A stretch of DNA of 64,000 nucleotides from Maribacter algarum (ex Lu et al. 2025) (nom. illeg.) (GTDB lineage: Bacteria > Bacteroidota > Bacteroidia > Flavobacteriales > Flavobacteriaceae), in the NCBI GenBank assembly GCA_947495915.1, contig CANMAW010000004.1, positions 248,001 to 312,000 on the forward strand, read 5' to 3'. Position numbers and translations under genes: made by a program. The number at the start of each line of letters is the position of its first letter. Position 1 is the first letter of the stretch. The notes beneath the pieces were generated by a model that made no database searches, was not told the DNA's origin, and saw only the letters and a list, made by a program, of their open reading frames with translations. Positions 30,884-59,122 of the stretch are shown piece after piece.

Positions 30884-30929
30884 GCGGTACAGTACAGGAT
30901 ACAAATTCAAACAATCTCCATTAAAATTG
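30884..30929 (+). promoter_or_regulatory. Locus promoter copy A (19-bp element + -7 box)
   Basis: The element GCGGTACAGTACAGGATAC occupies 30884-30902. Exactly 21 nt after its GGAT comes TAAAATTG (30922-30929), one mismatch from TAnnTTTG. It lies 183 nt before the DUF2231/cytochrome gene, leaving a leader of about 150 nt. Its element differs from copy D at a single base. Confidence 0.75.
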
Positions 30930-31083
30930 CCTTATACCACAAATAAAATTATCCTATGGTTCTTGTTGGGTTTAATGAGAGTTTCCCTCACTCAAATTAA
31001 TAACTTACATGTGAAACCGGCAGACTTTGGTAACAAGGATGGATATAGGGCGATAAATCATATATTTTCAACGATAGTCTCAT

Positions 31084-33918
31084 ATGGAAGATTTTAATTG
31101 GATATTTCAGTTTCTAGGTCGACTGCATCCCTTGTTGGTACATTTCCCAATTGGCTTATTGGTGGTTGCACTTTTCATGGAACTGTTAACGATTGGAGGA
31201 AAACGGAAAGGGCTGCGAGAAGGCGCCTATTGGATAGTGTATGTGGGAACCATTTTCGCTGTACTCTCCGCCTTGTTTGGTTGGCTGCTGCGAACGCAAG
31301 AAGATTACATTGGGGAATTGGTAGACAACCACCAATACACAGGAATTGCCACAGCTGTTTTAGCTCTGCTTACCACGATTTTACTCAGGTTGACCATAAA
31401 GGGAAAACTGCCCGATTTCCGAGCGTACAGAACCGGACTTACGGCAACGGTAGTTTTGTTGACCATCGCGGGACATTTGGGTGCCTCGCTAACCCACGGC
31501 GAAGATTATTTAATTAGTGTTTTACCCGGCAATGAAGAGGAATATGACAATACCAAAGGTTTGGCCTTATTGGCGGAATTAAAAAACTCCGATTCTGTTT
31601 CTTTGGTGCAGCAAGACCGATTGAATCTAGAGGTCAGGGCCATCTTTGCCCATAATTGCTACCAATGCCATAGCGAGAACAAATCGAAAGGTGAATTGGT
31701 CTTGGAAAATAAGAGGGGGGTCTTCAAGGGCGGCGAATCGGGGGTCGTAATAGTTCCAGGTAAGCCAGACGAAAGTGAATTATATAAACGGATTACACTT
31801 TCACCAAATGAGGAAGGCGTTATGCCAAAAAAAGGGAAGATCCTCAAAGACAGTGAAATCAAATTGATAGAACTGTGGATCCAAAATGGGGCGCATTGGT
31901 CAGATCAAGCAGTGAAAATTTTCCCTGAAGCAGAATTAGCTTTAGTAAAACCTGAGCTCCCAAAAATTCAAAATATTACACATCCCATCGATAAATTAGT
32001 AGATGTATATTTTGATAAAAATAGTATTGATTGGTATGAAGTTGTTGATGATAGAGCTTTTATAAGACGTGCTTATATGGATGCAGTTGGTTTAATTCCA
32101 GAACCAAAAGTAGTTCATGATTTTATAAATGATAACAATCCAAACAAAAGAGAAAGATTAGTAGATACTTTATTAAACGACTATCAAAATTATTCGCAAC
32201 ACTGGCTAAGCTTTTGGAATGATTTATTGCGAAACGACTATTATAGTGTAGGTGGTAAAAAACCAATTACGCATTGGCTGTATACTTCATTAATGAACAA
32301 TAAATCATATGACCAAATGGTATCAGAGCTGGTAAATCCGGTAAATGGTTCAGAAGGTTTTATAGAAGGCGTAAAATGGCGTGGCGTTGTTAATGCCAGT
32401 CAAAGAACAGAGATGCAAGCGGCACAAAACATCGGGCAATCTTTAATGGGTGTTAATGTGAAGTGTGCTTCTTGTCATAATAGTTTTGTCAGCAATCTAA
32501 CTCTAGATCAAGCGTATGGATTTGCAACAATCTTTTCTGATTCCCTACTAGAATTGAATAGATGCGATAAACCCATTGGTAAAATGGCGAAAGCTAATTT
32601 TTTGTATCCAGAATTAGGGAGCGTTGAAGGAAAAACAGTTAAAGATAGATTATTAAAACTTTCAGAAGTAATAGTACAGAGAGGTAATGGGAGGCTGTAC
32701 CGCACAATAACCAATAGGTTTTGGGATCGATTGATGGGACGGGGAATTGTTATACCATTAGACGAAATGGATAATGCTCCATGGGACGGTGATATATTAG
32801 ACTGGTTATCTGCAGATTTTATCGATTCAGGTACGGACTTAAAGCATTTAATTAAGCGCATCATGACATCTAAAGTCTATCAACTGCCCATGGTCAATTA
32901 CAAAAAAGAGGAAGACCTAAAAACTAAGTATGTCTTTAAAGGTCCAGTAACTCGCCGACTAAGCGCTGAACAATTCTCAGATGCCGTGAGTCAAGTTATT
33001 GCACCTTTGTATCCCCAAGTGGCGTTTAATCCCCATGGAGATGATATTAACGCCATACGCATTTGGCATTTAGAAGAAGAGTTTGACAGGGTGGTATTAC
33101 CAGAACCTGGTAAAAGATATTTTAGAAAATCATTTAAGGTCTCAAAAGAAGCTATCAAGAATGGGGAGATTTTGATTTCAGTTGATAATTCTTACATCCT
33201 TTATCTTAACGGAAAAAAGATATTACAAAATAAAAATTGGAAAGTCGTTGATAAAATTGATGTTTCCGAGCAATTGCATCCAGGAAAAAATACCATTGCA
33301 ATTTTAGGGGAAAATGGAGGGACTATTGCAAATCCAGCTGGAATAATATTTGCTTTGAAGATTGAATATGAATCTGGTAAGAGTACTCTTTTGAAGTCTG
33401 ATTTATCTTGGGTGAGTTCTCATGAAATACCTGAAGGGGATTGGGTTGCTGTGGCGTATGACGATAATTCATGGAAAAAGGTTAGAAATTACAGTACGGG
33501 TAATTTTAAAAATTGGGGACAATTACTTGATTTTACCTTTAAGCCCCATAACGAAAAATTTGCACGTGCTAGTTTGGTAAAGCAACATCCATTTATGAAG
33601 GCTTTAGGAAGACCCAGTAGAGAAATTGTAACTACTTCAAGGGAAGATCAAGCTACCTTATTGCAAGCTTTAGAACTGACTAACGGTGAATTTTTCAACG
33701 GAATTTTAGAGGAAGGCGCACAATCGTGGTTAAAAAAATATGGCGAGGATAGCAGTACAATTGTAGACAACTTATATGCAAAAGCATTAAACAGACAGCC
33801 ATCAAATGAAGAGAAAACAATTATGCTTAATGTTTTAGGAGAGGCGCCAGAACATGACCAATTGCAAGATGTATTTTGGGCTGTATTAATGTCTCCAGAA
33901 TTTCAGTTTATCAATTAA
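31084..33918 (+). CDS. DUF2231 - cytochrome c (PSCyt1) - DUF1549 - DUF1553 membrane protein
   Basis: The 944-residue protein starts with a DUF2231-like four-helix membrane domain (about 1-145; LHPLLVHFPIGLL). A planctomycete-type cytochrome domain follows, with haem motif Cys192-Tyr-Gln-Cys195-His196 (about 185-275). DUF1549 (about 300-480) carries a second CxxCH at Cys461-Ala-Ser-Cys464-His465. DUF1553 runs to the end, interrupted at about 660-800 by a galactose-binding-like insert. Proteins of this kind are abundant in Planctomycetes and Verrucomicrobia beside DUF1501 genes and sulfatases; their reaction is unknown, but a haem-linked periplasmic redox role is likely. Base composition shifts near residue 290 (see findings). 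It is followed at 11 nt by DUF1501. Confidence 0.85.
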   Translation: MEDFNWIFQFLGRLHPLLVHFPIGLLVVALFMELLTIGGKRKGLREGAYWIVYVGTIFAVLSALFGWLLRTQEDYIGELVDNHQYTGIATAVLALLTTILLRLTIKGKLPDFRAYRTGLTATVVLLTIAGHLGASLTHGEDYLISVLPGNEEEYDNTKGLALLAELKNSDSVSLVQQDRLNLEVRAIFAHNCYQCHSENKSKGELVLENKRGVFKGGESGVVIVPGKPDESELYKRITLSPNEEGVMPKKGKILKDSEIKLIELWIQNGAHWSDQAVKIFPEAELALVKPELPKIQNITHPIDKLVDVYFDKNSIDWYEVVDDRAFIRRAYMDAVGLIPEPKVVHDFINDNNPNKRERLVDTLLNDYQNYSQHWLSFWNDLLRNDYYSVGGKKPITHWLYTSLMNNKSYDQMVSELVNPVNGSEGFIEGVKWRGVVNASQRTEMQAAQNIGQSLMGVNVKCASCHNSFVSNLTLDQAYGFATIFSDSLLELNRCDKPIGKMAKANFLYPELGSVEGKTVKDRLLKLSEVIVQRGNGRLYRTITNRFWDRLMGRGIVIPLDEMDNAPWDGDILDWLSADFIDSGTDLKHLIKRIMTSKVYQLPMVNYKKEEDLKTKYVFKGPVTRRLSAEQFSDAVSQVIAPLYPQVAFNPHGDDINAIRIWHLEEEFDRVVLPEPGKRYFRKSFKVSKEAIKNGEILISVDNSYILYLNGKKILQNKNWKVVDKIDVSEQLHPGKNTIAILGENGGTIANPAGIIFALKIEYESGKSTLLKSDLSWVSSHEIPEGDWVAVAYDDNSWKKVRNYSTGNFKNWGQLLDFTFKPHNEKFARASLVKQHPFMKALGRPSREIVTTSREDQATLLQALELTNGEFFNGILEEGAQSWLKKYGEDSSTIVDNLYAKALNRQPSNEEKTIMLNVLGEAPEHDQLQDVFWAVLMSPEFQFIN

Positions 33919-33929
33919 AAAGTAAAAAG

Positions 33930-35393
33930 ATGGACGCAAATAATTCGCGTAGAGATTTTTTAAAAACAATGAGTGCTGCTAGTTTATCAGCGGCTGCAAC
34001 TACAATTCCAGGATTTAGTTTTTTAAGTTCTTGTTCATCTGAGGTTCAAAAAATGGCATCTATGGCAGATACTGTTATTTTACTATGGATGGCAGGAGGT
34101 ATGGCACATACCGAGACGTTTGACCCTAAAGCTTATGTTCCGTTTGAAAGAGGAGTGGAAAGCAAAAGAGTACTAAGTACCTTTCCAAAAAAACCTACGG
34201 TAGTTGATGATTTATATTTTTCAGAAGGATTAGAATCTATAGGAAGCGTAATGGATAAAGGTGCTATAATCCGTTCCTACAAATCAGCCGATTTAGGCCA
34301 TATTTTGCATACTCGTCATCAATACCATTGGCATACATGTTATGAACCGCCACAATCCGTTCAAGCGCCACATATTGGTGCTTGGATAGCTAAAGAATTA
34401 GGGCCTGCAAATCCCGTGATTCCTCCTTTTATTGCCATGGGGCAACGTTTTACAATGGGGGAGTCAGAAGAGTTAAAGGCATTTCATTCTGCAGGGTTTT
34501 TAGGTACAGAATATGGTCCGTTTTTAATTCCAGACCCATCAAGTGGTTTAGAAAGTGTACGCCCGCCAAAGGGTATGTCGCTCAAACGTTTTGAAGCGCG
34601 CTATAAATTGTATAAAGAACTGGCCAACAAAAGCCATGTGATGGAGCAGGCTAGCGATTATCAGCGTGAATCTTTAATGCGCTCAATGGAACAGTCGTAT
34701 CGTTTATTGAATTCGCCAGAAGCCAAAGTGTTTGATTTATCAGAAGAACCAAAAGATGTTTATGATACTTATAACACAGGGCGTTTTGGGTTAGGTTGTT
34801 TATTAGCAAAACGATTAGCGATGAATGGCGGACGTTTTGTAAGTGTTTCAACGGAATATGAACCCTTTATAGGATGGGATACTCATGAAAACGGACATAC
34901 CCGTGCCAAGAAAATGAAAGAACTGATCGATAGACCCATAGCGCAATTGATCAAAGATCTCGATGAAAGCGGTCATTTAGATAGAACCCTAATCATCTTG
35001 GCCAGTGAGTTCAGCAGGGATGCAATTATGGAGGGTCGCCCCGGAGAACTTGTAAAAGACCAAGTAGACCAACCTGATATCATCGAAGATGAAAAATTCT
35101 ATGGCATGCACCGCCATTTTACCGACGGCAGTTCCATTTTGTTATGGGGTGGAGGTATTAAAAAGGGTTTGGTGTATGGTAAAACTGCTGATGAGAGACC
35201 TTGTTCTTCTGTAGAAAATCCTGTCGTGATAGACCAAGTCCACCAATCAATCTATCATGCATTAGGTATTCACCCAGAAACCCATTATGAAATAGAAGGT
35301 AGACCTTTTTATACTACACCAGATGGTAAAGGCCAGCCGATATTAGATTTATTTGGTAATCCTATGAAACCTTCAAAAGAAAACATTGCTTAA
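33930..35393 (+). CDS. DUF1501 protein, Tat-exported
   Basis: The start at 33930 (487 residues) is preferred because it begins a twin-arginine signal, NSRRDFLKTMSAASLSAAATT, and lies 11 nt after the preceding stop; an in-frame ATG at 33876 would overlap that gene. The mature protein matches DUF1501, a member of the alkaline-phosphatase/sulfatase-like superfamily: ILLWMAGGMAHTETFDPK at the N-terminus, GFLGTEYGPF, WDTHENGH, and LASEFSRDA and GMHRHFTDG near the end, with His/Asp residues placed as in metal sites. It is the regular partner of DUF1549/DUF1553 proteins. Function unknown; a periplasmic hydrolase or redox partner is plausible. Confidence 0.88.
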   Translation: MDANNSRRDFLKTMSAASLSAAATTIPGFSFLSSCSSEVQKMASMADTVILLWMAGGMAHTETFDPKAYVPFERGVESKRVLSTFPKKPTVVDDLYFSEGLESIGSVMDKGAIIRSYKSADLGHILHTRHQYHWHTCYEPPQSVQAPHIGAWIAKELGPANPVIPPFIAMGQRFTMGESEELKAFHSAGFLGTEYGPFLIPDPSSGLESVRPPKGMSLKRFEARYKLYKELANKSHVMEQASDYQRESLMRSMEQSYRLLNSPEAKVFDLSEEPKDVYDTYNTGRFGLGCLLAKRLAMNGGRFVSVSTEYEPFIGWDTHENGHTRAKKMKELIDRPIAQLIKDLDESGHLDRTLIILASEFSRDAIMEGRPGELVKDQVDQPDIIEDEKFYGMHRHFTDGSSILLWGGGIKKGLVYGKTADERPCSSVENPVVIDQVHQSIYHALGIHPETHYEIEGRPFYTTPDGKGQPILDLFGNPMKPSKENIA

Positions 35394-35407
35394 AGTTTAA
35401 TTCAACC

Positions 35408-36508
35408 ATGGCAAAGTCTCAAATAAATCGCAGGACATTTATAAATACTACTGCAAAAGCGAGTTTGGGTTTCGCGGTTGTTCCTCATTTCAACATATTA
35501 AAATCAAAACCTCAAATGTATGAAGATGTCATTGGCCATGGCGATTTTAAGTATAAAGTGCATAAATCTTGGGGAGATTTAGATAGAGCCGTTACACCTG
35601 TAAAAAATTGTCATGAGATGGTAATGGACTCTAAAGGTCGCTTGATTATGGTAGGAGATGATACTAAAAATAATATTTTAATATATGACAAATCTGGTAA
35701 GCTTCTAGATTCTTGGGGCATTCGCTACAAAGGTGGTCACGGATTGTCTATTTGGAATGACGGTTCTGAAGACTTTTTATTCATCTGTGATGCCAAAGGC
35801 GAAAGCTTGATAAAAACCACAACAGACGGTAGAGAATTAATGATTATTGGACATCCGTCTCAATACGGTGCTTACGATAAAAAAGACACGTTTAAACCAA
35901 CAGAGACCGCTATTGGTCCTAATGGCGACATTTATCTTGCTGATGGTTATGGCTCAAACTATGTACTACAATTCACAAAAGAAGGAGAGTTTATTAGAAA
36001 AATTGGAGAAGGAAGAGGCACAGGACAAAATCAATTTCGAACTGCTCATGGTGTGTGTATTGATTATAGAGGCAAAGGCAAACCTACGTTGTTAATTACA
36101 TCAAGAGCTGCAAATTGTTTTAAACGTTTTACACTAGATGGCAATTATATTGAACAAATTGATTTGCCTGGCGCATTTGTATGTCGTCCAGTAATTCACA
36201 ATGAAAATTTATATTCTGGTGTGTGTTGGTCATCAGAAATCGATTACGTTGAGGGCAATAAGAATACCCATCCTTATAATATAAATCCTAAATCTGGTTT
36301 TGTAACAATTTTGAACGAGAAAGGCAAGGTAATTTCAAACCCAGGAGGAACAAAACCTAAATATAAGAAAGGAAAACTACAACGTATGGTCCAAGAAAAA
36401 CCCATTTTTCAGCATTGTCATGATGTCTGCATCGATAATGACGAAAATTTATATGTATGCCAATGGAATGCTAACAAGGCGTATCCTATAAAATTAGAGC
36501 GGGTTTAA
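35408..36508 (+). CDS. NHL-type beta-propeller protein, Tat-exported
   Basis: The 366-residue protein begins with a twin-arginine signal (INRRTFINTTAKASLGF). The rest is a six-bladed propeller with NHL-like repeats: MVMDSKGRLIMVGDD, AIGPNGDIYLADGYG, HGVCIDYRGKG and HDVCIDNDENLYVCQWN. Such peptidyl-glycine-lyase-like propellers bind metals or carbohydrates and are often secreted. It starts 14 nt after the DUF1501 gene, so the three form one unit under promoter copy A. It may present substrate or be a structural partner of the DUF1501/cytochrome pair. Confidence 0.85.
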   Translation: MAKSQINRRTFINTTAKASLGFAVVPHFNILKSKPQMYEDVIGHGDFKYKVHKSWGDLDRAVTPVKNCHEMVMDSKGRLIMVGDDTKNNILIYDKSGKLLDSWGIRYKGGHGLSIWNDGSEDFLFICDAKGESLIKTTTDGRELMIIGHPSQYGAYDKKDTFKPTETAIGPNGDIYLADGYGSNYVLQFTKEGEFIRKIGEGRGTGQNQFRTAHGVCIDYRGKGKPTLLITSRAANCFKRFTLDGNYIEQIDLPGAFVCRPVIHNENLYSGVCWSSEIDYVEGNKNTHPYNINPKSGFVTILNEKGKVISNPGGTKPKYKKGKLQRMVQEKPIFQHCHDVCIDNDENLYVCQWNANKAYPIKLERV

Positions 36509-36743: not shown

Positions 36744-36789
36744 GCATGAGAGTACAGGATAAAGAAGCTTGGAACTTATTTTAATTTTC
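36744..36789 (+). promoter_or_regulatory. Locus promoter copy B
   Basis: GCATGAGAGTACAGGATAA (36744-36762) is followed, 21 nt after GGAT, by TAATTTTC (36782-36789), one mismatch from TAnnTTTG. It lies 61 nt before the GH78 gene, in a 313-nt gap that shows nothing else. The left half of the element is the most diverged of the seven copies. Confidence 0.65.
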
Positions 36790-36821: not shown

Positions 36822-39674
36822 ATGATAAAACAGCATATTTACCTTCTCTTACTACTATCAATTTGTTTTTCATGCCACAAAAAAAATGAGGAAAGCAATG
36901 CCTTAACCTTTAAACAGCTTTTAGTTAATTCAAAACAAAACCCTTTAACAATAGAAAGTGAGCGACCACTTTTTTCATGGCTTGTTGAAGCTGAGGATTA
37001 CAATAAATCGCAATCTGCATATCATATCTTGGTAGCTTCTTCTGAAGAAAAATTAAATGAAAATGATACCGATATCTGGAATTCAGAAAAGGTAAAATCC
37101 GCTCAATCGGCTCATGTAAAATATCAGGGAAAAGCATTGAAACCCATGCAAAAGTACTTTTGGAAGGTAAGAATATGGGATGAAACCGTACAGGCATCCT
37201 CTTGGTCGCCTGTCCAAAATTATAAAATGGGATTGATGGATGAATCGAACTGGGGAGATGCCAAATGGATAAGTTTAAATAAAGACACAAGAACCTCGGA
37301 GCATCGTTTTCGTGCTTACAAAACCAGTAAAATGGAGCAGGCCACCATGGTTAATGGTTTTACAGCCGGTTATTTTAGAAACCTCATACAAATAGAAAAA
37401 GAAATTGCAAGTGCCCAGGCTTACATATGTGGACTTGGGTATTATGAGTTGTTTTTAAATGGCAACAAAGTTGGAGACCACGTTCTAGATCCTGCCCCAT
37501 CAAATTATGATAAACAAGCTTACTATGTCAACTATGATATTACAGAACAATTAAAAACGGGTAAAAATGCTTTGGGGATTATTTTGGGAAATGGATTCTA
37601 CGGCCAAAATATTTCTTGGAAAAACGACCCTGAATCTGAAAAAGATTTGGCTTATGGCCCACCGGCAGTTCGTCTACTAATTAAATTACACTATAAAGAT
37701 GGATCCAAGGCCGATTTTCATACTGATGAAACTTGGAAAGAAGCAACCGGACCGATAGTATTCAATAATATATATGGCGGCGACACCTATGATGCACGCT
37801 ACGAAATTGGTAATTGGAGTTCTACGGACTATTCCGATGAAAAATGGGGGCAAGTCAAAGTCGTTTCGCCCGAACTAAAAAAAGTGAGCGCACAACAAAT
37901 TCCTGCAATAAAAAAGTTAAAGGTTTTAGACCCTCAAAAAGTTTTCAAGGCTCCTGATGGAAATTGGATAGTAGATTTTGGTCAAAATATAGCGGGTTGG
38001 GTGCAACTCAATGTCAAAGAAAAAAAAGGTCAACTCATAGAAATTACAACTACCGAGGCCTTATTGACCAATGGAAAGGATATTTTTCAAGGGGCCACTG
38101 GTGGCGGGGCTAACGGAATGCCACAGGTATACAAATACATTTGCAAAGGAGATACGTTGGAGTCGTGGGAACCTAAATTTAGCTACCATGGCTTTCGATA
38201 TGCTAAAATAAATGGGGTTTCAAGTAAACCGGATCAAAACATGATCAAGGCGGTTTTAGTGGCTACCGATATTCAAGAAAAAGGAAGTTTTACGTCTTCA
38301 GATAGTTTGTTTAATAAAATGCACAACATCAGCAAATGGACTATTATAGATAATCTTCATGGCATTCCTGAAGACTGCCCGCACCGAGAAAAATGTGGTT
38401 GGCTAGGCGATGCCCATGCTTTCTGCGAATACGCATTGTATAATTATGATATGTACGACTTCTATAAAAAATATATGGAAGATATTCGAACACAAATGCG
38501 ACCAACCGCCGGGCATAATGATCCAGATATTAAATATCATGTTCCAACCATGATCGCGCCGGGAAAACGAACCTCAACCTATGCAAAGTTAGATTGGGGG
38601 GTAGCCACCATGTATCTGCCGTGGTACAACTATTTATATTATGGAGATGATACTATTGTAAAGGAGTATTACGACGATATGAAAGAACTCACGAACTTTT
38701 ATCTTTCCTATAAAGGCAAAAATGGTATTATCCAAGATGGAATGGGCGATTGGTGTCCGCCGCTTTGGGATAGAAGAAAAAACCCAAGTGCCATGGAGTG
38801 TGACCCCATAACTTCGGCCAATGCCTATTTTTATGATGTTCTAGGTGTCATGGAAAGGTTCGCAAAAATGAATAAAGATGCCCGTTATGAAGAAGCGATG
38901 CGTAAGGAAAAACAAGAATTAAAAACTGCTTTCAACAAAGTGTTTTTGGTTGCTATTCCTAATACTGATCATAAGTGGTATGATAACCAAACGGCCACGG
39001 TACAAGCACTACAATTTGGACTGGTCCCCGAGGAAGAACTAGAAAATGTTGTGGATGGTTTGGTTCATAATATCACAAAGGTAAAAGGCGGACACCATTC
39101 TACAGGTATTCATGGTAACCGATATATCTATACCGTTTTGACTAAATATGGAAAAGGAGATTTAGCCCATCAAATACTAACAATACCTGAATTCCCAAGT
39201 CAAACCTATGTAATGAATTCTGGTTTTACCACATGGCCGGAGCGACAATTTGAGTGGAAAAAAATGGAAGGACCGACCAATTCATTAAACCACCCGATGC
39301 ATAGCGGTTTTGCTGCTTATTTCTATGAGTCTCTTGGTGGTATAAAATCTACTTTTGAAGCTCCGGGGTATAAAGAGTTTTTTGTTGATCCAGAATTTCC
39401 AAGTCAAATAACGAGTACCGATGTAACGATACCAACACCGTATGGCAACATCGAAAACAATTGGTCGATTAATTCTTCTGTGCTGACCATGAATCTTAAA
39501 GTACCATTCAATACAAAAGCTAGACTTGTTTTAACACAAAAAGAATATGAATCGTTAAAAATAAATGATAAGGATTTAAATGATTTCAAGGAGGAAATTT
39601 ACTCAGAGGAGCTTGATGACCATACCATTATTTTAGGATCAGGAGAATATAAAATTGAATATATAAAATCTTAA
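36822..39674 (+). CDS. GH78 alpha-L-rhamnosidase, lipoprotein
   Basis: The 950-residue protein starts with a lipoprotein signal ending at about Cys18. It follows the GH78 order: an N-terminal beta domain (TFKQLLVNSKQNPLTIESERPLFSW), a galactose-binding-like domain (YELFLNGNKVGDHVLDPAPSNYDK), a second beta domain (VDFGQNIAGWVQL) and the six-hairpin catalytic domain. Asp518 and Glu523 in EDCPHREKCGWLGDAHAF match the family's catalytic acidic residues. It should release terminal alpha-L-rhamnose outside or on the outer membrane. It heads a unit with the GH106 gene, 78 nt downstream. The REKCGW form places it in a different subgroup from the second GH78 (59158). Confidence 0.93.
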   Translation: MIKQHIYLLLLLSICFSCHKKNEESNALTFKQLLVNSKQNPLTIESERPLFSWLVEAEDYNKSQSAYHILVASSEEKLNENDTDIWNSEKVKSAQSAHVKYQGKALKPMQKYFWKVRIWDETVQASSWSPVQNYKMGLMDESNWGDAKWISLNKDTRTSEHRFRAYKTSKMEQATMVNGFTAGYFRNLIQIEKEIASAQAYICGLGYYELFLNGNKVGDHVLDPAPSNYDKQAYYVNYDITEQLKTGKNALGIILGNGFYGQNISWKNDPESEKDLAYGPPAVRLLIKLHYKDGSKADFHTDETWKEATGPIVFNNIYGGDTYDARYEIGNWSSTDYSDEKWGQVKVVSPELKKVSAQQIPAIKKLKVLDPQKVFKAPDGNWIVDFGQNIAGWVQLNVKEKKGQLIEITTTEALLTNGKDIFQGATGGGANGMPQVYKYICKGDTLESWEPKFSYHGFRYAKINGVSSKPDQNMIKAVLVATDIQEKGSFTSSDSLFNKMHNISKWTIIDNLHGIPEDCPHREKCGWLGDAHAFCEYALYNYDMYDFYKKYMEDIRTQMRPTAGHNDPDIKYHVPTMIAPGKRTSTYAKLDWGVATMYLPWYNYLYYGDDTIVKEYYDDMKELTNFYLSYKGKNGIIQDGMGDWCPPLWDRRKNPSAMECDPITSANAYFYDVLGVMERFAKMNKDARYEEAMRKEKQELKTAFNKVFLVAIPNTDHKWYDNQTATVQALQFGLVPEEELENVVDGLVHNITKVKGGHHSTGIHGNRYIYTVLTKYGKGDLAHQILTIPEFPSQTYVMNSGFTTWPERQFEWKKMEGPTNSLNHPMHSGFAAYFYESLGGIKSTFEAPGYKEFFVDPEFPSQITSTDVTIPTPYGNIENNWSINSSVLTMNLKVPFNTKARLVLTQKEYESLKINDKDLNDFKEEIYSEELDDHTIILGSGEYKIEYIKS

Positions 39675-39752
39675 TCTCAACCGCTACGCTCTTCCTGATG
39701 AATTGCGACAGAATAAGATTATGACAAGAAATAATTATTAGTTATCCGCACG

Positions 39753-45388: not shown

Positions 45389-45408
45389 AAAACGGAATAA
45401 AGAAAATA

Positions 45409-46749: not shown

Positions 46750-46770
46750 ACCATACGTACGTTCGGTAAA

Positions 46771-50008: not shown

Positions 50009-50064
50009 TTTACTTTTTTGTTTTTAGTTAATTGAGATGCAAGCACAAAGGATTATAGTCTGAG

Positions 50065-50379
50065 CTAGTCCATATAAAAAACTTCTTCCAGGGCTGCAGA
50101 TACTGGTGAGTTATCGGGATTGACTTCCATGATATCCGCCATAAAATCCCACCACTTTTTCACAATAGGATTATCCGACAAATCCTGGGAGCCGCCTTCG
50201 CCAGTTACTTTTTGAAATGCGAAAAGCGTATGGGTGTCTTCATCAAAAAAAATGGAATATTCACTGACTCCAGCATCTTTGAGCAATTGTTTCAATTCTG
50301 GCCATATAGCATTATGCCTTTTGACATACGCCTCTTTTTGACCGGGGTTCAACTTCATTTTGAAGGCCAATCTTTTCAT
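50065..50379 (-). CDS. rhaM: L-rhamnose mutarotase
   Basis: The 104-residue protein matches the rhamnose mutarotase (RhaM/YiiL) family in length and sequence: FKMKLNPGQKEAYVKRHNAIWPEL with the active-site His, EYSIFFDEDTHTLFAFQKV, and the NPIVKKWWDFMADIM helix. It interconverts alpha- and beta-L-rhamnose, which is direct evidence that rhamnose is a product of this locus. It lies between the GMC and GH105 genes of the minus-strand unit, 9 nt after GH105. Confidence 0.93.
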   Translation of the reverse strand: MKRLAFKMKLNPGQKEAYVKRHNAIWPELKQLLKDAGVSEYSIFFDEDTHTLFAFQKVTGEGGSQDLSDNPIVKKWWDFMADIMEVNPDNSPVSAALEEVFYMD

Positions 50380-50388
50380 ATTCTTAGT

Positions 50389-51519
50389 TTAGTGATCCAA
50401 TTTCAATATTTCGCTACCAGCCAACAAAAAAGCTCCCGTACCATAATTTTGCCAGCTATCGGCATCCGCCGGTCTAGGGTCATACCCAATATTTTGTACC
50501 CAACCCACCATACCGTTGTCTTTTTGGCATTTGGCGAGTGCTAACCATGCTTTCATAACAACCGGAGTGTACTCATTTTTATCCAAAACACCGTTGTTTA
50601 TTCCCCAAGTAAGGGCAAAGGTGTAAAAACCACTTCCGCTTACTTCTCCATGGTCGAAGGATTCGGGAGAAAGTAAACTCGTGCGCCATAGACCATCTTC
50701 ATGCTGTATTTCCTTAATTTTCTGGGCCATTTCTTTGTATAGGTTCAGGTAAAAATCACGATGTTTATAGTCTTCGGGCATGTCATCAAGTATTAATGCC
50801 AAACCACCCAATACCCAACCATTTCCTCGGGACCAGAATATTTTTTTGCCGTTTTCCTCTTTCAAATCGTCGGCAGTACCTTTCCACAAAAATCGAGCGT
50901 CTCGAGCAAAAAGGTGCTCTTCTTTGTCATATAAGAGATTGTAGGTTTCCATATAGTATTTATGCATTATATCCAAATGTTTCATATCTCCGGTATGGTT
51001 CGCGTACAGGGTGAGCATAGGTGGTGCCATAAAAAGCGCATCACACCACCACCATAGTATATTCTTTACGGGATCTTTATCCGTACCATCTCTCCATTTG
51101 TTCGGTTCGTATAAATGTTTTTGGATAAAGGTTTCGGTTGGCTTCAAATCCACATAATTTTTACGTGTGTCGTTCATCACCAAATATAGATAACCATAGG
51201 AAACCGTTACATCATCTGCGTGAAAGTAACGGTCATAGGTTTTCCACTTGTTCCAATAGCCTGTATTTTTCAGGGCAGCAAGAAAAATTTGGTTTTGAGT
51301 GGATTTGTGGGCTCGTGCAATCCCAATCTGGTATGCCCCGTTTGTCCAATCCGTAGGCGCGACTGCGAATATGGGATGTGCTTCTTGCCACTCCATAGCC
51401 CGCACCATATTTTTTTCGATTTCTTTGTTGTCCATTTGTTGGGCGGAAACTATACAGGCACTGATTATTCCAATAAATAATATGGTAAATATGTTTCTGA
51501 AAGTTTGTTTTTTTTTCAT
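50389..51519 (-). CDS. GH105 unsaturated rhamnogalacturonyl/ulvan-type hydrolase
   Basis: The start at 51519 is chosen over an in-frame ATG at 51552, which overlaps the GH3 gene; it opens a signal peptide ([15 protein letters not shown]..., ends VSAQ). The 376-residue protein is an (alpha/alpha)6 toroid of the GH105 family: [28 protein letters not shown] with the conserved Asp, [14 protein letters not shown], and the late [12 protein letters not shown]105 enzymes hydrolyse unsaturated uronic acids left by polysaccharide lyases, so the substrate should contain uronate next to rhamnose, as in ulvan or rhamnogalacturonan. It is 22 nt after the GH3 gene. Confidence 0.9.
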
Positions 51520-51541
51520 TGTGTACTTCTTAAGTTTGCTT

Positions 51542-53803
51542 CTATTTTTCAAGTCTGAATTGGGCTGAAACTCCTTTTTTAGATGAAGTCCCTATCATAA
51601 CAGTGTAGTCTCCTGCTTCCAATATTTTTTCCATTGTGGGGCCTGTGAATTTCAACATCTCGGGATTTATTGCAAAAGTTACGGATTTTGATTGACCTGG
51701 TTCAAGTTCGATTTTTTCAAACCCCTTCAATTCTTTATCCGGTCTGGTTACGGAACCTATTTCATCCTTTATATACATCTGAACTACTTCCTTGGCTTTC
51801 ATTTTTCCGGTATTGGTTACTTGTACACTAACCTTTATTTCTGAGGAAGGAGTGATTGTACTATTTGATAATTGTAATCCGCTGTATTCAAATTTGCCAT
51901 AACTCAATCCATGTCCAAAAGGAAATAATGGCCCATCCTTCAAGAACAAATAACCTTTTTTATTGTTGATTCCCTTCATACTATAGTGAAAAGGTAATTG
52001 TCCGATGGACCTTGGAATGGTAACCGGGGATTTTCCAGAAGGTGAAATCTCCCCGAAAATGATTTTTGCTAAAGAAGAATCACCGAACTCGCTAAGGTCC
52101 CAGCCGTCTAAAATGGCACCTGCGTGCTCGGCGATTGTGTTAATAGCTAGTGTTCTTCTATGCTTTAAGACTACGATAAGCGGTTTGCCATGCTCCTTTA
52201 TACGTCTTACCAGCTCATCTTGTGCGCCGACGGGTTCGATTGTAGCTCGGTCTCCGAGGGCACCATTAAAAAATGCTTCCTTTGAAGTGAACTCATCTCC
52301 ACCTAAAAATAAGACAGTTATGTCGGCTTCTTGGGCTATGTCGGTCAACCGTTGCAGCGTTTGTTGATCAGTTGTTAGGAGATTGGGAACCCCTTTGTTT
52401 CCGTCGGTCAATTCAAAACCCTTGTCTGCCACAAATGAAATGTCAGCTCCTGCAACGGATTCAAAAGCGGCTTTAGTACCTTCATTCAGTAAAGGCCCCA
52501 ATAAGGCGATTTTCTTATTTGTTCTTTGAATAGGAAGAGTATTTCCTTTATTCTTTAAAAGGATAATCGATTCTAAATCGGCCTCCTGCGCCAAAGCCAA
52601 AGAATTGGGATTCCTCACTTCTTTTTCTACTTTTTCGATATCCACAAATGGATTGTCAAATAATCCCAAAATCATCTTTGTACGAAGCACACGCCTTACG
52701 GAACGGTCGATCATTTTTTCGACACTTGGGTCTTTTTTGACTATTTCAGGTAAATACGCATAGGAATCCTCGGCGTATAAATCGATATCGATGCCCGCCA
52801 CTAAGCCCATTAAGGCGGCAGCTTCGGGTGTTTCGGCAACTTTCATAAAATAATACAGTCGGGCGATGTCGTTGGAATCAGAAACTACATACCCATCAAA
52901 GCCCCATTGGTCTCTCAAGACCCCTGTCAGCAATTTTGGATTACCGTGACTGGCAACCCCATTCAAATCTCCGTGGGAAGCCATGATTCCCAGAGTACGA
53001 GCTTCTTTAACAGCAGCTTCGAAAGGTGGGTAAATTTCATCTACTAAGGTTCTCGGTGATATCTCTACGGCCGCAAAATTGGAGCCGCCAAGCACTTGTC
53101 CATATCCTGCAAAATGCTTTGCAACGGCACCGATATGAGTTCCAGCACCTAAACCTTCGTAATTACCTTGTACCCCTTTTATTGCGTTAATGACCATTTG
53201 GGTGGTCAGGTAAGTATCTTCCCCAAATGCTTCTGACATACGGCCAAAACGTGGGTCACGAACTATATCGGCCTCTGGGGAATGACACATGTGCATGCCA
53301 CGCAAACGAGCCTCTCGACCGACAACATCCCAAATACGGTTGACCAGTTCAGGATTAAACGATGCAGCCGAAGTAATCGGTCTGCCAAACTTGGTACAGC
53401 CGTCAGCATCTACCCCATTGTAAGACTCGGTAACAAACAAGGCAGGGATGCCCCATCGGTTACTTTTGATAACATACTTCTGTAATTCGTTGTTTAGCTT
53501 GGCGGCAGCCAAGGGTGAAATATGCTCTCCAGGATTTTTAATACCCGCAATGCCGAGTTTTAATTTTTCCACGACCCTATCGGAAAGTTTCAGTCTTCCT
53601 TTCTCATCGGATTCGACCCCAATGTTAGCATGGAAAATACGCATCTGCGCCACCTTTTCTTCAAGGGACATTCTGGGCAATAGATCATCGACCCTTTCAT
53701 CTATAGTGAGGGACTTATCCTGATATGGCATCCTTCCCCTTTGAGCATAACTCATATAAAAACCCACAAGTGCCACTAAAAGGACTAAAATTTTATTCTT
53801 CAT
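51542..53803 (-). CDS. GH3 beta-glycosidase, secreted
   Basis: The 753-residue protein has a signal peptide (1-20, ends SYA) and the GH3 layout: a TIM-barrel with KHFAGYG, nucleophile Asp309 in GYVVSDSND, an alpha/beta sandwich domain, and a C-terminal fibronectin-III domain ([19 protein letters not shown]). It should cleave a beta-linked glucose, xylose or glucuronyl residue; the exact sugar is not readable. The presence of xylose in ulvan would fit. It leads the minus-strand unit ending at 48308 and has promoter copy G 51 nt before its start. Confidence 0.92.
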
Positions 53804-53825
53804 TTTCAGTAGTTCAATTGAAGGC

Positions 53826-53871
53826 TAAAATATCACTAAGAAACAATTAGGGCATCCTGCTCTGTCGTGCT
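53826..53871 (-). promoter_or_regulatory. Locus promoter copy G (minus strand)
   Basis: On the minus strand GCACGACAGAGCAGGATGC (53871-53853) is followed, 21 nt after GGAT, by TATTTTAG (53833-53826), one mismatch from TAnnTTTG. It lies 51 nt before the GH3 start. It is the only reverse-strand copy and serves the only minus-strand unit that begins in the window's PUL. Confidence 0.7.
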
Positions 53872-54045: not shown

Positions 54046-54091
54046 GCGGTACAGTGCAGGATACTTTGTAGCTATAATAACATTAATGTTG
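54046..54091 (+). promoter_or_regulatory. Locus promoter copy D (distal, upstream of susC)
   Basis: GCGGTACAGTGCAGGATAC (54046-54064) is followed, 21 nt after GGAT, by TAATGTTG (54084-54091), one mismatch from TAnnTTTG. It is 246 nt before susC and 176 nt upstream of copy E, so susC/D have two tandem promoters of the same kind. Confidence 0.7.
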
Positions 54092-54221
54092 TTGAATAAT
54101 AGATGTCTTATTCGATTTTCAAATTACCCCATATAGGCAGAAATACAATTGTTAAACAATTAATTACAGTAGCGATAAATCATGCATAATGTGCTCATTA
54201 AGAATAGAAAAACAGCACAGT

Positions 54222-54267
54222 ACAGCACAGTGCAGGATGAGCACAAAGAAGTACTCTAATATTTTTG
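54222..54267 (+). promoter_or_regulatory. Locus promoter copy E (proximal, upstream of susC)
   Basis: ACAGCACAGTGCAGGATGA (54222-54240) is followed, 21 nt after GGAT, by TATTTTTG (54260-54267), a perfect TAnnTTTG box. It lies 70 nt before susC. A further CAGCACAGTA partial copy directly precedes it (54213-54222), making a short tandem. Confidence 0.8.
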
Positions 54268-54308
54268 AAGCAATCAAACAATAATTCTTTACTTAAATAA
54301 ACAACTGT

Positions 54309-57300
54309 ATGAAAAAAACTAAATCAACTTCAAACAAACTTTGGACACTGTTCCTGACTTTGTTGCTTGCATTCAGCTCTATGGCTGGATGGTCTCAACA
54401 AACCGTTACGGGTACGGTATCTGATAGCGAAGGGCCATTACCCGGGGCATCAGTAGTCATAAAAGGCACCACTCAAGGTGTTAGTACAGACTTCGATGGA
54501 AATTATACCATTGAAGCGGGATCCGACGACACCTTACAATTTTCTTACATTGGTTTTGCCACTAAAGAAGTAGTTGTGGGCGTTCAAAACCAAATCAACG
54601 TAATTTTGGAAACAGACAACGCACTTGATGAAGTCGTTGTTATCGGTTATGGTACCACAACCAAAAAAGATCTTACTGGTTCTGTATCATCCGTAAGTTC
54701 TGAAGATATTACGCAAGTACCTGCTTCTCGGGTGGATCAAGTACTACAAGGTAGGGCCGCAGGAGTTCAGGTAACTCAATCTAGTGGTGCACCTGGAGCG
54801 GGGACCGCCATTCGAGTAAGGGGTGGTAACTCTATCACGGGTAGCAACGAGCCACTATTTGTTATTGATGGTATCGTGGTTGGGACCAACTTCAACTTGA
54901 ACAATATCAATCCTAGCGATATTCAATCCCTTGAAATTCTAAAGGATGCATCCTCTATTGCAATTTATGGTTCAAGAGGTGCGAACGGCGTAGTTTTGAT
55001 TACTACAAAAAGCGGTCGCAGCACTGGAACCGGAAAACCACAAGTGAGTGTTAATGTATTCACCAGTATGCAAATGTTGCCTGAACTTCCAGACCTGCTG
55101 ACCCGTGAAGAACAAATCGCTTTTACGAATGAAAGTGCAGAGTTCAGGAATGTGGCTGCACCATTCCCTGATGCGCCTTCTACCTACCCGAATAACGATT
55201 GGGTGGATTTAACGACAGGCCCAGCCCCAATGTATAATGCAGATGTATCCATATCAGGAGCGTCAGATAATGTGAACTACTTTAACTCCATTAACTATTT
55301 TAATCAAGAAGGTATCGTAAAAAGTACGGGGATCGAGAAATTTATATTTAGATCGAATCTAGATATTAATCTAAGTGATAAATTGAAAGCTGGTTTCCGT
55401 ATCAATTACTCGAGAATTAAAAGCAACCGTGCACTTACCTCTTTTGGCGCCAATGCCTTTGGAACGTTGCGCACACAACCTGCATTCAATGATGATGGTA
55501 CCTTTAACGGGTTTAATGATGTGGTCGGTGCGCCATTTAGTAATCCGCTTGCCAATTTCGAACTGAATAGCGGTGAGACCTATACCAATAATTTGTTGGG
55601 TACGGTTTATTTGGAATATAAACCTGCGCCAGCCTGGACGATTCGTTCGACTTTTAGCCCAGAATTTAATAATGTGAAACGAAACATCTTTAATTCCAGT
55701 CAACTACCTGGTAATCTTGCCGTAGGTATAACCGATGGCGGTAATGCAAGTGTAAGAACTGTAGCAGGGGTAGGTTGGAACAATGAAAACACCATACAGT
55801 ACAATACTGATTTTGGTGAGGACCATAGCTTAACCGTGCTCGGTGGTGCTTCTTTTCAAAAAGTATCTAATGAAATTACGGAAGCAGAGGCAGCGGGTAT
55901 TACCAGTGATGCCACTGGCTTTAATAACCTAGGCAATTCAGATCCAATTAGATCTATTGTGAGCAGTGGCTATAACGGATTTCAAATCGCTTCGTTCTTT
56001 GGAAGGATAAACTATGACTACAAAGATAAATACCTATTGACCTTGGTTGGTCGAACAGATGGTAGTTCTGTTTTTGCGCCAGGAAACAAGTACAATTTCT
56101 ACCCTTCCGTGGCGGCAGCATGGAACATCAATGAAGAAGAGTTCATGCAAAATCAGAGCTTATTCAGTAATTTAAAGTTAAGAGCCAGCTGGGGGCTTTC
56201 TGGTAATCAAGCAATTGGCCCCTACAGAACATTCGGAGTACTGACAGAAGCAAATACTACGCTTAACGGTTCAGAGGTGCCAGGCCTAACCCTGGGCAGG
56301 CCTTCCAACCCAAACCTACAATGGGAGACTACCACTTCATTGGATATCGCTTTGGAAGCATCATTGTTCGGAGGTAGACTCTTCACGGAATTCAACTATT
56401 ACCAAAAAGAGACCAACGACCTACTCTTGGATGTAACAATCCCTAGACAAACCGGATTTACAAGTCAACTGCAAAATATTGGGGCACTAGAAAACAAAGG
56501 ATGGGAATTATTGGTGAATTCAACCAATATAGCCAACGAAAACTTTAATTGGAAAACCACTTTGACATTAGCAAGAAATAAGAATGAAATTTTAGATCTT
56601 GGGGGTCAAGAATTCATTGACCTTGTTGTAGACCCCATAATAGGTTCCGGTAATACGCGATTAATCGTAGGTGAATCCGTTCCTGTTTATACAGGGGTAA
56701 ATTATTTAGGAACTTGGAAGAGTCAAGCAGAGATTGATGCTTCTGGGCTTACTGCTCAAGTTGTTGGTGGATCAAGATTTGAGGATCTGAACGGTGATGG
56801 TATCATCTCGACCGAAGATAATGTTGTTCTGGGTAGTCCATTTCCCGACCTGATTTACGGGTTCGAAAACTCATTTTCTTACAAAAATCTAGATTTCTCC
56901 TTTTTCTTTCAAGGCACCACAGGCAATGAAGTGTTCAATTTAAGGATGCGTAATCACTATTTTAATCGTGGTGAAACGGTGAAATTTGGAGATTTGCGAG
57001 ACCGTTGGACGGTTGACAACCCCACCTCTGATATTCCTCGAGCTGGTGCGGACTCCGTAACTAATACACCTCCTAATTCAGAATATGTAGAGGATGGTTC
57101 ACATATACGTCTTAAGGCGGTACGATTAGCTTATAACTTTCCTACCGAAAAAATAGGCCTGGACGGAGTCAAAAATGCAACATTATATATAAACGGAAGT
57201 AACTTATTATTGTTCTCAAAGACTCGATTGATAGAGCCAGAAGCCAATAATTTTAACGAAGGCAATAATCAATTTGGTAATATAGCACTAGGATATTTAG

Positions 57301-57356
57301 ATGGGCAATATCCCAACCCTAGAATTATTACCCTTGGTCTAAACGTAACTTTTTAA
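54309..57356 (+). CDS. SusC-family TonB-dependent transporter
   Basis: The 1015-residue protein has a signal peptide (ends WSQ), a carboxypeptidase-like N-terminal domain (TVTGTVSDSEGPLPGASVVIKG...), a plug (VVVIGYGTTTKKDLTGSVSSV, then QVLQGRAAGVQVTQ) and a 22-strand barrel with the SusC-type end GLNVTF. It imports oligosaccharides released from the substrate across the outer membrane, with the SusD partner encoded 12 nt downstream. It is preceded by two copies of the locus promoter. Confidence 0.96.
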   Translation: MKKTKSTSNKLWTLFLTLLLAFSSMAGWSQQTVTGTVSDSEGPLPGASVVIKGTTQGVSTDFDGNYTIEAGSDDTLQFSYIGFATKEVVVGVQNQINVILETDNALDEVVVIGYGTTTKKDLTGSVSSVSSEDITQVPASRVDQVLQGRAAGVQVTQSSGAPGAGTAIRVRGGNSITGSNEPLFVIDGIVVGTNFNLNNINPSDIQSLEILKDASSIAIYGSRGANGVVLITTKSGRSTGTGKPQVSVNVFTSMQMLPELPDLLTREEQIAFTNESAEFRNVAAPFPDAPSTYPNNDWVDLTTGPAPMYNADVSISGASDNVNYFNSINYFNQEGIVKSTGIEKFIFRSNLDINLSDKLKAGFRINYSRIKSNRALTSFGANAFGTLRTQPAFNDDGTFNGFNDVVGAPFSNPLANFELNSGETYTNNLLGTVYLEYKPAPAWTIRSTFSPEFNNVKRNIFNSSQLPGNLAVGITDGGNASVRTVAGVGWNNENTIQYNTDFGEDHSLTVLGGASFQKVSNEITEAEAAGITSDATGFNNLGNSDPIRSIVSSGYNGFQIASFFGRINYDYKDKYLLTLVGRTDGSSVFAPGNKYNFYPSVAAAWNINEEEFMQNQSLFSNLKLRASWGLSGNQAIGPYRTFGVLTEANTTLNGSEVPGLTLGRPSNPNLQWETTTSLDIALEASLFGGRLFTEFNYYQKETNDLLLDVTIPRQTGFTSQLQNIGALENKGWELLVNSTNIANENFNWKTTLTLARNKNEILDLGGQEFIDLVVDPIIGSGNTRLIVGESVPVYTGVNYLGTWKSQAEIDASGLTAQVVGGSRFEDLNGDGIISTEDNVVLGSPFPDLIYGFENSFSYKNLDFSFFFQGTTGNEVFNLRMRNHYFNRGETVKFGDLRDRWTVDNPTSDIPRAGADSVTNTPPNSEYVEDGSHIRLKAVRLAYNFPTEKIGLDGVKNATLYINGSNLLLFSKTRLIEPEANNFNEGNNQFGNIALGYLDGQYPNPRIITLGLNVTF

Positions 57357-57368
57357 AAAAAATTAGAT

Positions 57369-58937
57369 ATGAAAACAAAGAACATATATTTATTGGTCTT
57401 CATCATTTTCACATTCTTTGGTTGTGAGGAATTTCTGGAAGAAGATCCAAGAGCAATTATTGCTCCTGAAACGTTTTTTGCATCCGATAATGATGCTAGA
57501 CAAGCCATACAGGGTACTTATGCGATCTTAAAAAACAATTCCATTTATGGTCAAGTAGGCCTGGACCATTTTTATGACAATGGCGCCGATATCATAGAAC
57601 CAAACCGTGCCGCTAATTTTGTTCAACCTATTGGCAATTATACTTTGGATGAGGCCTTGGCAGATGTCTCTGTTCAGAAAATGAGCGTGTCCGATACATG
57701 GAAAGACCTATATAGAATCGTCTTTAATGCTAATTTTATCATTGACAGAGTAACGGATAATGAAGCCATACTTGAAGAAGTACGCACAGAGGTTATTGCT
57801 GAAGCAACATTCTTACGAGCATTGTGCTATTGGCATATTACCAATCTTTGGAGTGATGCCCCCTACTATACCGAAGCATTACCTCTTGATGAAGTAAGGG
57901 TTTTAGGAAGAACGGATGAAGCCATAATTTTAGATGGTGTTATTGCAGACTTACAATTTGCACAATCAATTTTGCCTTCTACATACCCTGACGATCAAAG
58001 AGGGCGAGCGACCAAATGGGCCGCAGCCATCATTGAAGCGAAAATCTACATGAAGCAACAAAACTGGCAGGCCGGTTTAGCCAAATGTTTGGAAATTATC
58101 AATGAGTCACCTCATACGTTATTACCAACATACGATGAGGTTTTTGACCCTGCGAATGAATATAATGCTGAAATTATTTGGTCTTTAGATTTTGCAAGAG
58201 ATATTGAAGGTATCTTTGACCCAGCGTTTCCGGGTAGGGCTTTTGCAGGTAATAATAGTTGGAGACCCAGTATGTTCAATCCTCGTTTAAGGGATGAACC
58301 CAAGAACACAGATGAAAGAGGTGCATTAAGAGATACCCTAAGTGCAAGAGGGGAAGCTTTTAATGGTACTGGCTTACAAGTAGCTTCAAAAGATTTTGCT
58401 GAAAAATTCCCTTTGAATGATTTGAGAAGACCGCTGAACATTGTAGATAATTATTTAGGATTCGAACTCAATTTTCCCTACATGGCTAAATTTTGGAATC
58501 TTGACTTAGCAACCTCTCCACGTTTTAACCACTCTGATAACAGAATGGTATTTCGTTTGGCCGATGTATATTTAATGGCAGCGGAGTGTGAAAATGAATT
58601 GAATGGCCCAGGAAATGCCTATCAATATATTCATCCGATACGACAACGTGCCTACGCTACACAAGCCGAGTGGGAACTTGTTGGACTTAATCAGCAAACC
58701 TTTAGAGAAGCAATTTATGATGAGCGCAAGTGGGAATTAGCTGCGGAGGCTCATAGAAGGTACGACTTGATTCGATGGGGTATTTTGCTAGATGTAGTTC
58801 AGAATCTAGAATATCGCTTCTGGGAGCCTAATGTCAATATAAGACCTTATCATGTTTTATTGCCAATTCCTTTGCAAGAATTGGAACAAAACCCGGCCTT
58901 GTTGGAGTCAGACCCAACAAATAATGGGTATCGTTAA
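57369..58937 (+). CDS. SusD-like glycan-binding lipoprotein
   Basis: The 522-residue protein has a lipoprotein signal ending at about Cys19 (FTFFGC). It matches the SusD/RagB family: EEFLEEDPRAIIAPETFF, a TPR-like helical core with FLRALCYWHITNLW, and the C-terminal FRLADVYLMAAECENEL and ERKWELAAEAHRRYDLIRW signatures. It binds glycan on the surface and forms a lid on the SusC transporter. It is 12 nt after susC and is followed by a 14-bp terminator stem. Confidence 0.95.
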   Translation: MKTKNIYLLVFIIFTFFGCEEFLEEDPRAIIAPETFFASDNDARQAIQGTYAILKNNSIYGQVGLDHFYDNGADIIEPNRAANFVQPIGNYTLDEALADVSVQKMSVSDTWKDLYRIVFNANFIIDRVTDNEAILEEVRTEVIAEATFLRALCYWHITNLWSDAPYYTEALPLDEVRVLGRTDEAIILDGVIADLQFAQSILPSTYPDDQRGRATKWAAAIIEAKIYMKQQNWQAGLAKCLEIINESPHTLLPTYDEVFDPANEYNAEIIWSLDFARDIEGIFDPAFPGRAFAGNNSWRPSMFNPRLRDEPKNTDERGALRDTLSARGEAFNGTGLQVASKDFAEKFPLNDLRRPLNIVDNYLGFELNFPYMAKFWNLDLATSPRFNHSDNRMVFRLADVYLMAAECENELNGPGNAYQYIHPIRQRAYATQAEWELVGLNQQTFREAIYDERKWELAAEAHRRYDLIRWGILLDVVQNLEYRFWEPNVNIRPYHVLLPIPLQELEQNPALLESDPTNNGYR

Positions 58938-59007
58938 CAAGTTAAAAAATATAGAAGCATATATTCCTTTTGGGAATTTAGGCTATTGAGTTGTTGAGTT
59001 AGTTATG

Positions 59008-59041
59008 AAAATGGGGTAAACTGTATGTTTACCCCATTTTT
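59008..59041 (+). terminator. Strong intrinsic terminator after susD
   Basis: A perfect 14-bp stem pairs 59008-59021 with 59027-59040 around a 5-nt loop, with a run of T at its end. It separates the susC/D unit from promoter copy F. Confidence 0.85.
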
Positions 59042-59076
59042 GTCTTAATTTGTTGACATTTATAGCTTTTTGGGAA

Positions 59077-59122
59077 ACAGTATGGTACAGGACGCGTTAA
59101 CTAATACTGAATATTATTTTTA
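59077..59122 (+). promoter_or_regulatory. Locus promoter copy F
   Basis: ACAGTATGGTACAGGACGC (59077-59095) is followed, 21 nt after GGAC, by TATTTTTA (59115-59122), one mismatch from TAnnTTTG. It lies 64 nt before the ATG at 59158, which supports that start over a GTG at 59140. Confidence 0.72.

Follow-up and report, generated by a model that had tools for sequence, protein, structure and literature searches.

A promoter element at the -33 position marks the rhamnose-polysaccharide locus of Maribacter algarum and is the probable site of a GntR-type regulator

What reads a promoter element that recurs between the genes of a polysaccharide locus, on both strands and always at the same distance from the -7 box? 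This question is raised by a window of 64,000 nucleotides (nt) from the 4.17-Mb genome of Maribacter algarum (C4:248001-312000, C4 being contig CANMAW010000004.1), in which a first-pass annotation had described seven copies of a 19-bp element. Our results show that the element and its fixed spacing belong to at least 11 promoters of a single locus, and that across related genomes the element accompanies the gene of a GntR-type protein, here called P0001. It is probable, in our judgement, that the element is the binding site of this protein, which would respond to rhamnose and work as a class-II activator; binding, the ligand, the substrate of the locus and whether regulation is positive or negative are what we infer from the site, its spacing and confinement, the co-occurrence and the domain make-up of the protein, all of them read directly in the sequences.

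All seven copies were found again on re-reading the sequence. In each of them GGAT (GGAC in the copy at 59077) is followed, after exactly 21 nt, by an octamer that matches at least five of the six positions of TAnnTTTG; the octamers are TAAAATTG, TAATTTTC, TATACTTG, TAATGTTG, TATTTTTG and TATTTTTA on the + strand and TATTTTAG on the - strand. Every copy is intergenic, as had been described, and faces a gene start; the flanking long open reading frames (ORFs) carry Pfam matches or head operons, and the leaders predicted from the -7 boxes would be 13 to 213 nt long. The minus-strand copy is real and keeps the spacing, although it had been quoted one base off register (GGAT stands at positions 15-18 of the 19-mer, not 14-17). 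A weight matrix built from the seven sites scores each of them at 24 bits or more, and the best other match in the window, apart from a 20.1-bit second match overlapping the copy at 54222, is intragenic and reaches 13.1 bits. Given the empirical rate of 1.2% for a five-of-six box at an arbitrary distance, the chance of seven boxes out of seven at one distance is about 3e-14, in agreement with the view that such spacing is very unlikely to arise by chance. A consensus search with at most three mismatches proved too strict, recovering three of the seven sites where shuffles expect none.

The regulon is larger than the window. A matrix of the 21-base core, built without the -7 box and run as an independent test on five further stretches of this genome, 20 kb each, gave six matches above 12 bits: four are intergenic, all four with the box at 21 nt, and two lie inside genes and have no box. 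The outside sites stand before rhaEW (L007:671, + strand), before a gene fusing a sulfatase to a glycoside hydrolase of family 78 (GH78; L006:14193, - strand) and, as a back-to-back pair (L006:18412 on - and L006:18439 on +), before KduI and a Ppx-GppA gene. These four sites with a box at 21 nt take the set beyond the window to at least 11 promoters, in all 11 of which the -7 box has at most one mismatch to TAnnTTTG. A core-only profile of eight sites (R1), for which 150 of 177 first-look candidates in the whole genome were scored, gave eight matches at E <= 10, all of them at C4:278882-332691, and missed three of the 11 promoters. The composite profile R2, built ungapped from 54 sites over 49 positions, gave 16 matches at E <= 10 with 150 of 3348 first-look candidates scored. 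The top 11 (E 1.8e-8 to 0.043) coincide exactly with the 11 promoters, nine of which were in the R2 training set, the KduI/Ppx pair being the exception; all lie within one 54-kb locus (C4:278884-332720), and the other five matches (E 0.08 to 6.3) are partial and fall elsewhere in the genome. The annotation had expected a regulon restricted to one polysaccharide locus and its relatives; a single locus is indeed what the scan returns, except that the sites reach 20.7 kb past the window. An exact genome search with AGTACAGGAT was set aside: it gave four matches, of which one (C1:1192621) is intragenic and absent among the matrix matches.

Is the spacing kept in other genomes? In a first set of relatives (28 genomes picked from 59), R1 matches at E <= 0.5 occur in six of the nine genomes with a regulator match of at least 43% identity versus two of the 19 others, some of which have paralogues of 30-41% identity; single matches in two regulator-less genomes (G023 and G047) have no -7 box and were taken as chance. 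Among the distinct core matches above 12 bits from the loci of this set, 29 of 36 have the box at 21 nt, and no other distance from 8 to 44 nt accounts for more than three. A second set comprised the loci of the best 80 of at least 590 relatives (61-87% identity) from Zobellia, Maribacter, Arenibacter, Flavobacterium, Polaribacter, Lewinella and others. Once matches with less than 75 nt of sequence, or duplicating the first 45 nt of another, had been dropped, it gave 127 distinct core matches above 15 bits in 71 of the 80 loci, versus nine in nine of the 80 for the reversed matrix. The box lies exactly 21 nt away in 86 of the 127 elements, and every other distance between 8 and 44 nt accounts for none to seven of them (a rate of about 1%). 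Most of the 86 boxed sites (79) are found between genes and point at a gene no more than 400 nt away; four overlap a called ORF; the 78 of these 79 genes that were typed include 36 with aldolase-II and SDR domains (RhaEW type), 12 SusC-like genes and seven sulfatases. A group of Flavobacterium-type loci (L094, L096, L098, L103, L105-L113, L117, L121, L122, L155 and L263-L265) share a variant site (AAAGGAYAGTACAGGAY) with the -7 region TTATTTTA.

The protein that travels with the element is encoded 19.5 kb to the right of the window (C4:331521-332603). Its gene is divergent from an L-rhamnose operon (rhaEW, rhaI and a kinase gene), with the rhaEW site between the two, so that the gene lies beside, and the sites before, genes of L-rhamnose catabolism (RhaEW, RhaI, FGGY kinase), as expected of an L-rhamnose regulator. 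P0001 has 361 codons from a TTG start, and comparison with orthologues suggests that translation may really begin with the ATG of codon 14. It carries an N-terminal GntR winged helix (PF00392, 38.5 bits versus a cut-off of 27) and a C-terminal LacI/periplasmic-binding-like domain (Peripla_BP_3, PF13377, E 4.4e-7); the Pfam scan gave no aminotransferase-like domain, the MocR models covering residues 17-101 only, and no AraC-type match. The structure modelled for the orthologue from Zobellia barbeyronii (alignment of 33 sequences; mean predicted local distance difference test score 88, weakest at the linker 84-86) has two domains, a winged helix of helices and strands and a sensor part. The best Foldseek matches in the PDB are LacI-type and ribose-repressor-like regulators (best E 3.9e-12), and the DNA-binding domain of P0001 matches AraR (4egy, E 4.8e-6). 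Among 148 relatives, including the genome studied here and searched with strict filters and 40 candidates scored per genome, 18 carry an orthologue with an identity of 55% or more, and composite matches at E <= 1e-4 were found in 16 of these 18 versus none of the 130 others (Fisher's test 1.4e-19, kinship uncorrected). A few of the test genomes are of the same species as some R2 training sites, or of a near one, which favours the positives, not the negatives.

The consensus of the 86 sites, which come from 53 loci, is C R G N A Y A G T A C A G G A T R S, and the 19-mer seems better described as a 10-bp direct repeat, CRGNAYAG-TA-CAGGATRS. If the first T of the -7 box is numbered -12, as in the available text of PMC6847099, the element spans -49..-32, with its last unit at -39..-32 and GGAT at -36..-33. 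It therefore sits where the -33 box should be, as the annotation had proposed, and overlaps the -35/-33 region at a fixed distance, which is the geometry of class-II activation; the TTTG of a -33 box is not seen in the 86-site consensus. GntR dimers usually, though not in every case, bind inverted-repeat operators. Within clade A, the direct repeat and a palindrome around GTACAGTAC score near even by column frequencies; site by site, the direct repeat fits better than the inverted one in 43 of the 86 clade-A sites, worse in 22 and equally in 21.

More distant orthologues (about 41% identity) come from other orders of the same class, not from other classes, and their sites are weak: four of the seven matches that exceed 5 bits keep the 21 nt to the box (L274, L277 and, twice, L278). 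Four distant sites, themselves weak matches, keep the 21 nt and give five of six matches to the direct repeat versus two or three of six to the palindrome, for example CATGATAG-TC-CATGAC and CAGAATAG-CA-CAGAAC; in two further ones the figures are three versus one (L267) and four versus four (L236). The palindrome CNGTACNGTACNG, our first reading, fits our own sites slightly better but was set aside, being poor in four of the six distant sites (of the other two, one is a tie and one is poor in both) and leaving the arrays unexplained. Such arrays, of three or four units at a 10-bp period, occur in four of 85 promoters of the second set, and our own susC promoter has three units; the extra units all lie upstream, with none of the 85 promoters having one downstream (+10, +20, +30). 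The repeat matches in the distant sites and the upstream-only arrays lead us to prefer units arranged head to tail along a single face of the helix.

We propose that a dimer of P0001, with more copies on longer arrays, would bind these head-to-tail units on one DNA face, where the protein on the last unit would replace the -33 box and touch RNA polymerase, giving class-II activation at promoters that have a normal -7 box and no TTTG at -33. Probably the protein senses L-rhamnose or an early product of its catabolism, because the regulator gene is divergent from the rhaEW-rhaI-kinase operon; one signal would thus turn on rhamnose catabolism and about 30 genes in all, many of them cutting a sulfated rhamnose-rich polysaccharide. 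The class-II reading is suggested by the one distance kept at 11 unlike promoters, by the place of the site at -33 and by the upstream-only arrays, and activation seems to us the probable sign of regulation, with real room for doubt.

Several observations weigh against this proposal. Most characterised GntR proteins are repressors. At E <= 0.05 a composite match is found in all 18 genomes with the regulator but also in 26 of the 130 without it, and in two of the regulator-carrying genomes, G039 and G146, the composite matches are weak at best. In the second set, nine of the 80 loci have no core match above 15 bits and 41 of the 127 elements have no box at 21 nt; of these 41, 17 are Flavobacterium-type sites reading TTATTTTA there (21 and 22 nt fit equally poorly) and five are upstream members of arrays. 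Nine of the 15 distant-orthologue loci (L268-L282) have no site match above 5 bits, and our own sites fit an inverted repeat slightly better than a direct one. The repeat of the group B paralogues stands 20-24 nt from the -7 box in the five loci having one, and four of these five face the regulator gene itself. According to the available text of PMC6847099, F. johnsoniae promoters generally have a weak -33 box, so that the absence of this box is no proof that an activator is needed.

The main rival keeps the same regulator and the same site but makes P0001 a repressor, which would cover the -33 region without rhamnose, block RNA polymerase and be released by the sugar, the fixed distance resulting from an operator that replaces the -33 region. 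Repression is the usual role in the GntR family, AraR included (its PDB name is Arabinose metabolism transcriptional repressor), a reference title mentions a GntR repressor of alginate catabolism in Zobellia, and the group B paralogues show looser spacing, mostly at their own promoters. However, a repressor needs no single exact distance at 11 promoters and in relatives, the extra units extend upstream only, and the sites lack TTTG at -33; we consider repression unlikely, though it deserves serious attention.

It is very improbable that P0001 is a bystander and that another DNA-binding protein travelling with the locus reads the element. The case for P0001 rests on co-occurrence and adjacency, and the Pfam scan near the sites covered part of the ORFs (L007:10064-10567 lies outside it). 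But among the genes scanned from C4:278 to 344 kb the only other regulator-like Pfam match is RteC at L007:11131, and two P0001 paralogues adjoin SusC/SusD-sized ORFs with related 10-bp direct repeats; to the left, the nearest regulator-like gene, for a LytTR response regulator, lies 18 kb ahead of the first site. An alternative sigma factor reading the element directly as its -35/-33 box, which the annotation had offered beside class-II activation and which the fixed spacing would suit, can scarcely be credited, since the -7 box carries TAnnTTTG, the usual motif of the main sigma factor, and not a non-standard -10 region, the alternative sigma motifs of F. psychrophilum have other boxes (available text of PMC9723704), an 18-bp site with arrays of up to four units at a 10-bp period is longer than a sigma box, and the presence of the element tracks the GntR gene (16 of 18 versus none of 130).

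What does the regulon contain? Behind the 11 sites are genes of L-rhamnose catabolism (RhaEW aldolase-dehydrogenase, RhaI-like isomerase, FGGY kinase and a lactate dehydrogenase of the flavin mononucleotide-dependent type), and also RhaM, GH78 and GH106 rhamnosidases, GH3, GH88, SusC/SusD, several sulfatases, KduI and SDR, the total of about 30 genes being counted by gene adjacency. Because of this enzyme set, the substrate may be a sulfated rhamnose-rich glycan, ulvan- or rhamnan-like.

In the window, sites were placed by sequence re-reading and matrix, and genes by ORFs and Pfam. Promoter 1 (site 30885..30902, -7 box TAAAATTG at 30922..30929, 21 nt after GGAT) precedes three + strand genes (31084..36508) for a DUF2231/PSCyt1/PSCyt2/PSD1 protein, a DUF1501 protein and a 6-bladed beta-propeller; these planctomycete-type cytochrome genes (PSCyt1/PSCyt2/PSD1, DUF1501) are thus found behind a regulator site in a Bacteroidota rhamnose regulon. 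Also on the + strand, promoter 2 (site 36745..36762, box TAATTTTC at 36782..36789) precedes alpha-L-rhamnosidases GH78 and GH106 (36822..43298), and promoter 3 (site 43376..43393, box TATACTTG at 43413..43420) a 639-aa protein without a Pfam match and two sulfatases (43469..48258). Promoter 4 reads the - strand (site 53852..53869, box TATTTTAG at 53825..53832) into genes for GH3, a GH88-type hydrolase, the L-rhamnose mutarotase RhaM and a GMC oxidoreductase (48308..53803). Two + strand promoters stand before the SusC-like TonB-dependent receptor and SusD-like protein (54309..58937): an upstream one (site 54047..54064, box TAATGTTG at 54084..54091) and a proximal one, whose three units at a 10-bp period (54213..54240, from the matrix, with an overlapping second match at 54209) precede the box TATTTTTG at 54260..54267. 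Promoter 6 (site 59078..59095, box TATTTTTA at 59115..59122, + strand) serves an alpha-L-rhamnosidase GH78 gene (59140..61920, +) listed with a GTG start and having an in-frame ATG 18 nt downstream. On the - strand, a sulfatase gene (61928..63721) is apparently the last of a long operon, defined by adjacency, that starts at L006:14100 behind the site at L006:14209-14192.

Outside the window, a single gene for 1180 aa joins a sulfatase to a GH78 rhamnosidase (L006:10558-14100, that is C4:322558-326100, minus), and the back-to-back sites at L006:18411-18460 serve KduI and the Ppx-GppA phosphatase gene, the latter an odd regulon member. Elsewhere in the window we observed a response regulator receiver domain fused to a family 2 glycosyltransferase (7630-8769), a likely nitric oxide-sensing signalling set (11911-17744: haem-NO-binding HNOB protein, PAS kinase, FIST-domain protein, second kinase, LytTR response regulator and lone receiver domain) and a gene with a Pycsar effector-type membrane domain (PF18967; 18012-18635), with no cyclase recognised among the scanned neighbours.

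The genome encodes two more full-length relatives of P0001, with 37% and 32% identity, adjoining ORFs called SusC/SusD by size. Near these paralogues there are 10-bp direct repeats of related form, CAGACTAG-AC-CATACTAG and GCATAG-AN-TATCATAG, the second of which occurs in nine of 16 orthologues, with three units in one (L197). The pattern CATAG-N5-CATAG (nine of 16 clade C orthologues) and the other clade patterns were chosen after looking, and most clade C -7 boxes are poor. A strict 21-nt rule for group B was dropped on account of its distances of 20-24 nt, and a blind search for any 10-bp repeat with a -7 box in 21 paralogue loci gave no clear overall peak distance, the repeats emerging clade by clade only. 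As a proposal and not a result, and one that we hold to be possible rather than probable, GntR/LacI hybrids may form a general class of class-II activators for Bacteroidota polysaccharide utilization loci (PULs), acting on one-turn direct repeats that replace the -33 box. Each paralogue would have its own unit (CAGGATAG, CAKACTAG, YAKCATAG) and strength would be tuned by upstream units, with the rhamnose branch keeping the 21-nt rule in other orders while the site drifts.

How does P0001 compare with known regulators? AraR-type GntR/LacI hybrids, such as Bacillus subtilis AraR, share its plan of a GntR winged helix, a linker and a LacI-like sugar sensor. AraR binds palindromes and is named a repressor, of a type whose repression is relieved by sugar, whereas for the putative P0001 site a 10-bp direct repeat fixed within the promoter is the best reading. 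In the MocR/GabR/PdxR branch, which has the same GntR DNA-binding domain, sites are direct repeats on one DNA face and the proteins often activate a divergent operon, but the sensor is aminotransferase-like instead of LacI-like and the repeats are two or three helical turns apart instead of one (available text of PMC5320631). GntR/LacI hybrids and direct-repeat GntR proteins are each already known, separately. L-rhamnose catabolism genes of Bacteroides are controlled by RhaR, which belongs to a different family, AraC (PMC3878776 and PMC3870299, in the text available). The hybrid two-component system (HTCS) and SusR-like regulators of PULs are likewise local to polysaccharide loci and use direct repeats, but they are AraC-type or SusR-type proteins and their repeats are about 21 bp or 67-77 bp apart (available text of PMC3878776). 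Table 2 of the same paper lists FucR and ManR of Bacteroides as GntR family regulators of sugar genes, like P0001; they serve fucose and mannose, with a single operon for FucR, and are set beside P0001 here by description only. Searches of the open full-text literature, judged by titles, abstract openings and selected passages, gave no description of this site or regulator, subscription papers and RegPrecise being outside the search.

The finding would connect a promoter code and its regulator across an entire rhamnose-polysaccharide locus, and it makes regulon members predictable from sequence alone in many flavobacteria. It also points to control of L-rhamnose use by a type of protein absent from the text of a rhamnose-regulon survey, whose main text names regulators of the AraC, DeoR and LacI types and does not contain the word GntR (PMC3870299). 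If activation is true, the locus would show how the unusual RNA polymerase of the Bacteroidota can be recruited without a -33 box, and by a family usually seen as palindrome-binding repressors.

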